A DNA stretch of 41,086 nucleotides. It comes from Acidobacteriota bacterium. Its GTDB lineage: Bacteria; Acidobacteriota; UBA4820. The notes below the pieces were generated by a model that did no database searches, was not told the origin of the DNA, and saw only the letters and a list, made by a program, of their open reading frames with translations. Below, piece after piece: positions 31,677-34,443 of the stretch. The first letter of the stretch is position 1; each line of letters opens with the position of its first letter. The stretch is from contig JAKQCT010000053.1 of assembly GCA_029559035.1 (NCBI GenBank), positions 1-41,086 of the forward strand, read 5' to 3'. The translations under genes and the position numbers were made by a program.

Positions 31677-31737
31677 GTAGGGGCACATTGCATGTGCCCT
31701 GTTTGTTTTATCGAGGGCACGCGCAGCGTGCCCCTAC
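31677..31737. repeat. REP pair downstream of the RAYT gene
   Basis: Two linked palindromes: GTAGGGGCACATTGCATG and its GTGCCC arm, a 15-nt T-rich spacer, then GGGCACGCGCAGCGTGCC ending CCTAC. The pair begins GTAG and ends CTAC, like the copies at 32447-32507 and 32559-32618. Its right end contains the stop codon of the RAYT gene. Confidence 0.85.
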
Positions 31738-32381
31738 GATGGCCGGGCGCGGCAGGGCAATATATCCATCCATGTGTTCTCATATTCATCGTTTTCAATT
31801 CGTTGTTCGTTCTCCCTGTCGAACTGCCACTGCGCGGGATTCAACTCGATGTACCGCCTTGTTTTGTTCAATTCTGCCTCGTTCCTTACAATGTGTTCGT
31901 AATAATTCCTCTGCCAGAATTCCGCTCCAGGCGTTCCCCGCAGGATGTTGATCTGTTTCGTTGATGTTGCCTTGAACAAACGAACGATCGTCGACAACGA
32001 CCCGGATCTCGGCATTCCGAATGTTTCCACCGTTGTAGGGGCACGTTGCAACGTGCCCGCATTAATTTCATCATGATTTTGGGCACGCGGCAGCGTGCCC
32101 CTACCGGTTATCGTTAAAATTCCATGTAAGTGATTGGGCATGATCACGAACGAATCAATTTTGACAACGCGCCGCAATTCACCTGTTTTTTCCCATTCAT
32201 TCCAGGCGATTATCCCGTATGCATTCAGCTCCATTTTTCCCATGATAATTCTGCCGAACAAACATTTATGGTCTTTCACGCAGATCGTCACGAAATACGC
32301 GCCGGGAGTGGAATAATCGAATCGTTTCAATCTTACGGAACGCCGTTTTAATTCGTCGTTCATGTTGTAATGATACCTCAT
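31734..32381 (-). CDS. REP-associated tyrosine transposase (RAYT, Y1/HUH family)
   Basis: This 215-aa protein matches TnpA-REP: RLKRFDYSTPGAYFVTICV near the N-terminus, the HUH motif in FVIMPNHLHGI (H84-L-H86), the conserved TKQIN segment and the catalytic tyrosine in FWQRNYYEHIVRNEAEL (Y160/Y161). Such enzymes nick single-stranded REP hairpins and are thought to spread them. The start is ATG 32381 or ATG 32363; neither has a strong ribosome site. Upstream in-frame codons are only REP sequence. REP copies lie on both sides and one lies inside the gene, coding for residues about 93-116 between the HUH motif and the TKQIN helix. The TAG stop is also REP sequence. The gene seems intact, so it may still be active. 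Confidence 0.9.
   Translation of the reverse strand: MRYHYNMNDELKRRSVRLKRFDYSTPGAYFVTICVKDHKCLFGRIIMGKMELNAYGIIAWNEWEKTGELRRVVKIDSFVIMPNHLHGILTITGRGTLPRAQNHDEINAGTLQRAPTTVETFGMPRSGSLSTIVRLFKATSTKQINILRGTPGAEFWQRNYYEHIVRNEAELNKTRRYIELNPAQWQFDRENEQRIENDEYENTWMDILPCRARPS
32035..32104. repeat. REP pair inside the RAYT coding sequence
   Basis: GTAGGGGCACGTTGCAACGT with its GCCC arm (32035-32057), an A/T-rich spacer, then GGGCACGCGGCAGCGTGCCC and CTAC ending at 32104. It has the same layout as the intergenic pairs and keeps the reading frame of the transposase open. Confidence 0.85.
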
Positions 32382-32410: not shown

Positions 32411-32618
32411 GTAGGGGCACATCGCATGTGCCCGGGCATTGTTTTTGTAGGGGCACATTGCATGTGCCCTGTTTGTTTTATCGAGGGCACGCGCAGCGTG
32501 CCCCTACGACGCGGCCGTGCGATCATCGTAACATCCCATGCGCCCTGGCGTTGTTTTTGTAAGGGCACATTGCATGTGCCCTGTTTGTTATTAAAGGGCA
32601 CGCGCAGCGTGCCCCTAC
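32411..32618. repeat. Cluster of REP elements upstream of the RAYT gene
   Basis: A single REP at 32411-32433 (GTAGGGGCACATCGCATG...), a full pair at 32447-32507 and another at 32559-32618 with one base change (GTAAGGGC). The pairs are near-identical to the one at 31677-31737, including the tgtttgtt spacer. The region 32382-32680 holds no gene. Confidence 0.85.
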
Positions 32619-32628
32619 AATGCGGGGA

Positions 32629-32660
32629 TAAAAAAGGGGCACGCGGAAGCGTGCCCCTTT
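32629..32660 (-). terminator. REP-derived rho-independent terminator
   Basis: On the minus strand GGGGCACGC pairs with GCGTGCCCC around a TTCC loop, extended by A-T pairs and followed by six T. It lies 20 nt after the stop of the gene at 32681, and the stem is the same GGGGCACGC core as the REP family. Confidence 0.75.
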
Positions 32661-33819: not shown

Positions 33820-34443
33820 TCAATAGTGGGCAGGTGTCCAACTACCTACAGCGGCAGTTGACACGCATTGATATGCCAGGCCAGGGGTAAGAGCAAAATT
33901 AACCTGTCCAACGCCGCCGCCCGCGTACCTTTGCCATGCCGTTCCATTCCAGTTATAAACGTTAACACCTGTACCACCCGCAGCGATAATCTCGTTGCGA
34001 AGTAATGCAGCACTGGTAGAGGTGCTGTGATAAGGTACTGCGACATATTTTGCAACCGTGGCAGACATTGTGATAGTCGTGCTTGGGTTGTGTGAGCCAA
34101 CAATAACCCAGTTGGATACGTCGGCAGTTGAAACGACCTGATATCCATCACCAGCTGCAAGAGCGAAGTTGACCTGACCGACACCGCCACCCGCGTATCT
34201 CTGCCAGGCAGTCCCGTTCCAATTGTAAACATTGACGCCAGTGCCACCTGCCGCAATGATATCATTTCTCAAAAAAGCCGCGGTCTGCGTCGAGTAACTG
34301 TTGTAGAATGGTAATGCAACATACTTGGCTACTGTAGCTGAAAGCGTCTGACTAAGCTTGAAGCCCATGTTGGACGCGCCTGATGTCAGCGCGATCGCGA
34401 GGATGAGTACCACTGCTACCGCTAAGATAATTCTGGTTTTCAT
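33820..34443 (-). CDS. Exported protein with two near-identical internal domains
   Basis: This 207-aa protein has a signal peptide (MKTRIILAVAVVLILAIALT) and then two copies of an about 85-aa module. Both open with SATVAKYVA(L/V)P(F/Y) and share a 34-residue block with no amino-acid change (from IIAAGGTGVNVYNW to GGGVGQVNFAL). The DNA of the two copies differs at many third positions, so the duplication is old and the protein sequence is held by selection. The ATG has GGGAGGAG 6 nt upstream. No known domain is recognised; a small secreted beta-rich protein is likely. Confidence 0.78.
   Translation of the reverse strand: MKTRIILAVAVVLILAIALTSGASNMGFKLSQTLSATVAKYVALPFYNSYSTQTAAFLRNDIIAAGGTGVNVYNWNGTAWQRYAGGGVGQVNFALAAGDGYQVVSTADVSNWVIVGSHNPSTTITMSATVAKYVAVPYHSTSTSAALLRNEIIAAGGTGVNVYNWNGTAWQRYAGGGVGQVNFALTPGLAYQCVSTAAVGSWTPAHY

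Follow-up and report, generated by a model that had tools for sequence, protein, structure and literature searches.

A cognate REP pair lies in frame within the HuH-Y loop of a RAYT gene, and REPs recur at this place in related RAYTs

REPs lying in frame between the HuH motif and the catalytic Tyr are a hallmark of tnpAREP subclass 2.4 (Quentin et al. 2018, PMC6006769). This subclass includes all 100 RAYT group 4 sequences of Bertels et al. 2017; its median HuH-Y distance is 88 aa, and it has a variable domain between beta3 and alphaC (PMC6006769). The GTAG-contact residues of the E. coli enzyme are W94, Q95, E100, H101 and R104 (PMC6006769). GTAG and CGTC REPs have also been described in frame in repair and other genes, and GTAG feet supply the stop codons of neighbouring ORFs (BMC Genomics 2013, PMC3733652).

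We analyzed a window of 41,086 nucleotides, by which we mean the whole stretch of DNA studied here. Its minus strand holds a RAYT / TnpA-REP gene of 209 aa at 31734..32363, recognized from PF01797, NF047646 and Foldseek. The most likely start is the ATG at 32363-32361 (MNDELKRRSVRLK...) and the stop is the TAG at 31736-31734. Against PF01797 (Y1_Tnp) the product scored 25.9 bits, which exceeds the gathering cut-off. Against NF047646 (REP_Tyr_transpos) it scored 62 bits (E 5.7e-17) and did not reach the curated cut-off of 80, which serves for naming and does not define the enzyme. The latter match was broken into two stretches, one on either side of the HuH-Y loop. The best Foldseek neighbour was 4er8, the structure of TnpA-REP in complex with a REP hairpin (E 1.7e-4), found with a weak AlphaFold model (mean pLDDT 56.7, built on four sequences). 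In the translation, MPNHLHG is present, and the HuH motif is H-L-H (codons 32132-32124). The recognition motif WQRNYYEHIVR begins at 31916 and matches all five of the E. coli GTAG-contact residues (W, Q, E, H, R). The catalytic Tyr lies in YIELNP (codon 31853-31851), and 93 residues separate it from the first His of HuH. The product is thus predicted to be a Y1-type transposase with HuH and a single catalytic Tyr, that is, a RAYT / TnpA-REP. Judging by its contact residues, long HuH-Y distance and in-frame REP, it is probably like group 4 or subclass 2.4.

The sequence-only reading had placed a REP pair at 32035-32104, in frame inside this gene and between the HuH and Tyr motifs. The inverted-repeat analysis returned exactly these coordinates, and the frame and the motifs agreed as well. 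The pair (minus strand, residues about 87-110) follows the HuH motif and precedes the GTAG-recognition/Tyr region, and the frame is open through it (codons GGT AGG GGC ... GCC CCT ACA). Its arms, 32035-32058 and 32081-32104, are 24 nt each and 88% complementary. Read on the coding strand, the REP GTAGGGGCACGCTGCCGCGTGCCC (32104-32081) is followed by a spacer of 22 nt and then by the inverted REP GGGCACGTTGCAACGTGCCCCTAC (32058-32035), so that two REPs face each other. Folded as RNA, the pair reached -45.5 kcal/mol (z -7.47), which was matched by none of 200 shuffles; none of 200 matched it as DNA either (z -6.26). Synonymous recoding gave a z of -6.1, and 0 of 100 recodings folded as well. The hairpin thus greatly exceeds what chance would give.

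The gene has the GTAG-REP flanks of a REPtron, with three REP pairs and one single REP within about 260 bp. Downstream, a pair at 31677..31737 (minus) contributes a GTAG foot that gives the RAYT its TAG stop (31734-31736). Upstream, repeat analysis revealed the single REP at 32411..32433 (plus), a pair at 32447..32507 (minus) that is 99% identical to the downstream pair, and a second pair at 32560..32618 (minus), one foot of which is degenerate (GTAAGGGC). A perfect-armed palindrome without a GTAG foot, AAAGGGGCACGC/GCGTGCCCCTTT, lies at 32633..32660 with no strand assigned; it may be a REP relic or terminator-like. The internal arms belong to the same GTAG family as the flanking REPs. The internal pair forms a 70-nt inverted dimer whose sequence has moved slightly away from that of the flanking pairs (21-nt vs 20-nt hairpins). 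The element at 32035-32104 is a copy of the RAYT's own cognate REP pair (REPIN), carried in frame. As the stop of the gene uses the REP in one phase and the insert uses it in another, a single REP motif plays both parts.

We found 17 matches to the pattern GGGGCAC-N3-14-GTGCCC in the 2.86-Mb assembly and one to its reversed control. Most of the matches were at the RAYT locus and a few were single copies elsewhere. One dispersed copy, on contig C54, was identical to an internal arm (GTAGGGGCACGTTGCAACGTGCCC). A comparison of the window palindromes with Rfam gave sub-threshold chance matches only. An adjoining ORF (33820-34443, minus) resembles an exported protein that contains an internal duplication, in which NVYNWNGTAWQRYAGGGVGQVNFAL occurs twice.

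We then compared 63 distinct RAYTs from about 45 genomes, all having both the HuH and W-Q motifs. A scan of genome contigs with the window protein found four weak relatives only, so whole-genome searches in the phylum were used, and the set comes from these searches and that one scan. Searches of plasmids and phages gave five distant matches, which were left out. With an automated scanner for GT[AG]GG and a subsequent stem of 7 or more pairs, we detected a strict GTAG-REP between the HuH and W-Q motifs in 46 of the 63 RAYTs. Inspection of the other 17 revealed relics or variants in four more (L096, L112, L128 and L140); in L140, a 28-nt palindrome, GTAGTGACAGGTCGCGACCTGTCACTAC, is common to loop and flank. 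The REP site is fixed after beta3 in most relatives, including the Bacillota loci L042 and L043, each of which has a second REP site at another place in the CDS. The contents of the loops vary from single REPs to pairs and double-foot palindromes, with up to four REPs per loop. In the 63 RAYTs, REP density was 5.38/kb in the HuH-Y loop vs 5.15/kb in the flanks at 0-150 bp. It was 0.82/kb at 150-300 bp, 0.09-0.20/kb beyond 300 bp and 0.34/kb in the remaining CDS, than which the loop is 16 times denser. Measured by its REP content, the HuH-Y loop is like a third flank to the gene. In ten RAYTs, an internal REP is present and no REP was detected in the flanks; others have flanking REPs without an internal one (L133, L101, L099, L088, L098, L103, L141 and L147).

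Loop lengths indicate that the internal pair is an insertion and not a family loop, because REP-free relatives have shorter loops. At loci without any REP the HuH-Y loop measures 35-53 aa (setting aside L096 and L140, which carry variant REPs), vs 69 aa in the window RAYT. RAYTs with internal REPs have a median loop of 72 aa, which falls to 48.7 aa once the REP span is subtracted. The same comparison led us to reject the view that the loop belongs to the protein irrespective of REPs. It had been stated beforehand that the pair was an insertion and that a similar loop in REP-free RAYTs would argue against this. We looked for such a loop and found none in the sample of 63, and the insertion itself was borne out. 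The accompanying figure of 23 extra residues needs a small correction, as it is the translated REP span, in which 24 codons are touched. Among all relatives, loops span 35-366 aa. The longest is at L107:1789-2728 (same gene in L038), where a 366-aa loop occupies the same site and the whole gene is a single open frame (534 aa). This loop is built from a 12-bp tandem repeat (38 copies) and a 27-bp tandem repeat (about 17 copies), with a REP palindrome between them.

A GTAG-REP can be read without a stop in two of its three phases. Among coding-strand REPs, 25 were in phase 0, 10 in phase 1 and none in phase 2, where GTAG makes a stop. The inverted REPs were found in phase 2 (24), phase 1 (12) and phase 0 (4). 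On a tree of the core protein, built without the loop, presence and absence of the internal REP changed 13 times, and at least 8 of the changes were forced by well supported branches. One loss can be seen by comparing sister genes, as the hairpin has gone from L112 with its ORF intact and the REP of L137 is still whole. In L112, an extra in-frame insert of about 60 nt, which looks palindromic itself, interrupts the tip of the coding-strand REP. Among the RAYTs compared, there was no near-identical gene pair with and without a clean insert. Flanking REPs were oriented as the internal pair in 29 cases vs 12 (P = 0.012). We did not accept this bias as evidence, since the cases are not independent and several loci are opposite.

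Internal REPs resembled the flanks of their own gene (mean similarity 0.75) far more than the flanks of other genes (0.31). None of 20,000 permutations gave a match as high (maximum 0.45, P ≤ 5e-5). The own flank was the best match in 18 of 36 RAYTs and among the top four in 30 of 36; the window RAYT had rank 1 of 36. Where core identity was below about 60%, the own flank won in 602 of 616 pairs. Over 0.6, the internal and flanking REPs of sister genes were interchangeable, and a test on disjoint pairs gave 10/14 (P = 0.09). Shared ancestry therefore accounts for part of the cognate match. The related L108 and L110 differ in their internal stems (GCGAATAAATATTCGCC vs GCGAAAAAATTTTCGCC), and each has the same variant in its own flank. 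In the set L036/L108/L110, one internal stem of L110 has a complementary double change that is mirrored in the flanks. Internal REP types are also dispersed in genomes with many RAYTs, e.g. GTAGGGGCGACCGGCCGGTCGCCC in G088. At L139, two adjoining RAYT genes carry different internal REPs, one of them identical to the REP beside it. Given the cognate match, an internal REP can hint at the specificity of a RAYT from the gene's own sequence when the flanks are missing.

It seems that the disordered loop between beta3 and alphaC is a place where cognate REPs land and are tolerated, the copy having little function of its own. We put the probability of this reading at roughly 0.7. The internal pair would sit in a long disordered loop between beta3, just past HuH, and the next helix; in the weak model, residues 88-120 are coil with pLDDT < 50. 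REPs may reach the gene or its vicinity because the RAYT itself acts on single-stranded DNA, or else through REP-REP recombination, and we infer that the RAYT itself placed the internal REP. Inside the gene, copies would persist almost solely in the HuH-Y loop, because a surface loop can accommodate about 20-30 additional residues and two GTAG-REP phases lack stops; the TAG of GTAG would have to be out of frame. A landed copy would then be kept like the flanking copies or exchanged with them, and selection against frame breakage and core disruption may have shaped the pattern. Apart from keeping a copy of the substrate linked to the enzyme, the insert most likely has little function or none. 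The ten RAYTs with internal REPs only count against this reading, as they are more than a pure landing site predicts. So do the interchangeable REPs of close sister genes, and the result that no near-identical pair with and without a clean insert turned up.

The alternative that survives best departs from the landing-site reading in history, not in function. REPs might have entered the ancestor of group 4 by a single ancient insertion, been lost later in some lineages, and stayed in step with the flanks through gene conversion or co-evolution of specificity. The position after beta3, shared even with the two Bacillota loci, and the joint change of internal and flanking copies agree with such a history. 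It is doubtful, however, in view of the two phases on the coding strand and three on the other, the range from single REPs to four in one loop, and the changes that supported branches force.

It appears unlikely that the internal REP is under selection as a cis element in group 4 RAYTs. In that case, the enzyme would recognize the hairpin within the gene or mRNA that encodes it, and so limit expression or bias mobilisation to linked REPs. If true, this would explain both a loop as rich in REPs as the flanks and the RAYTs with internal REPs only. A self-limiting device is also unlikely. Here, the RAYT would bind the internal hairpins in its own gene or mRNA, or the hairpin would slow ribosomes or alter mRNA decay, and expression would be damped. 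The whole pair does form one long mRNA hairpin of the stability given above, the contact residues are all matched, the internal REPs are cognate, and in 34 of 43 relatives 0 of 100 synonymous recodings folded as well. However, this recoding test is partly circular, as the genes were picked for having a hairpin. RAYTs with flanking REPs do without an internal one, L112 lost its hairpin and kept its ORF, and flanking REPs would be bound equally. The known substrate of TnpA-REP is single-stranded DNA, with which the structural and biochemical work deals (PMC6006769, PMC8266576), and the paper examined on this point reports no RNA binding. Finally, a useful protein module encoded by the REP (VGA...APT, GRG...APT), with the palindrome as a by-product, is very unlikely and was rejected for the variety of phases and peptides: 36 of 40 inverted REPs do encode APT or VPL, but the peptides vary freely among relatives and phases, the loops differ about tenfold in length, synonymous recodings keep the peptide and lose the hairpin, and complementary changes preserve the stem and not the residues.

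Among known systems, the Rickettsia palindromic elements (RPE) are palindromes inserted in frame in many protein genes, and they have no link to RAYTs. They resemble the present case in this respect, and it is a resemblance only. E. coli TnpA-REP (PDB 4ER8) shares with the window RAYT the fold, the HuH/Y core and the W-Q-E-H-R positions that contact GTAG, but it has no insert, and a short linker separates its HuH and WQ motifs. The intragenic REPs of PMC3733652 are likewise in-frame dimers coding for 20-30 residues, and a TAG stop supplied by GTAG is found there as it is here at 31734-31736; however, their host genes are unrelated to REP mobilisation. Subclass 2.4 is the nearest. It shares the REP between HuH and Y in tnpAREP with the frame kept, REPs of like kind in the flanks, long canonical REPs with G-C pairs at the start of the stem, and the variable loop between beta3 and alphaC. 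The window RAYT differs from the published members in its host lineage and in its internal 70-nt inverted dimer, slightly diverged from the flanks. In-frame REPs in subclass 2.4 RAYTs are already published (PMC6006769), and the pair described here is a well preserved further case. A transposase CDS holding its own substrate is a natural test case for the question whether REPs are passengers that the gene tolerates or belong to a control loop. As far as the literature examined shows, the figures for REP density and cognate match add to the published record: the comparison puts numbers on a published remark, with loop and flanks equally dense in REPs and internal copies matching flanking ones gene by gene.
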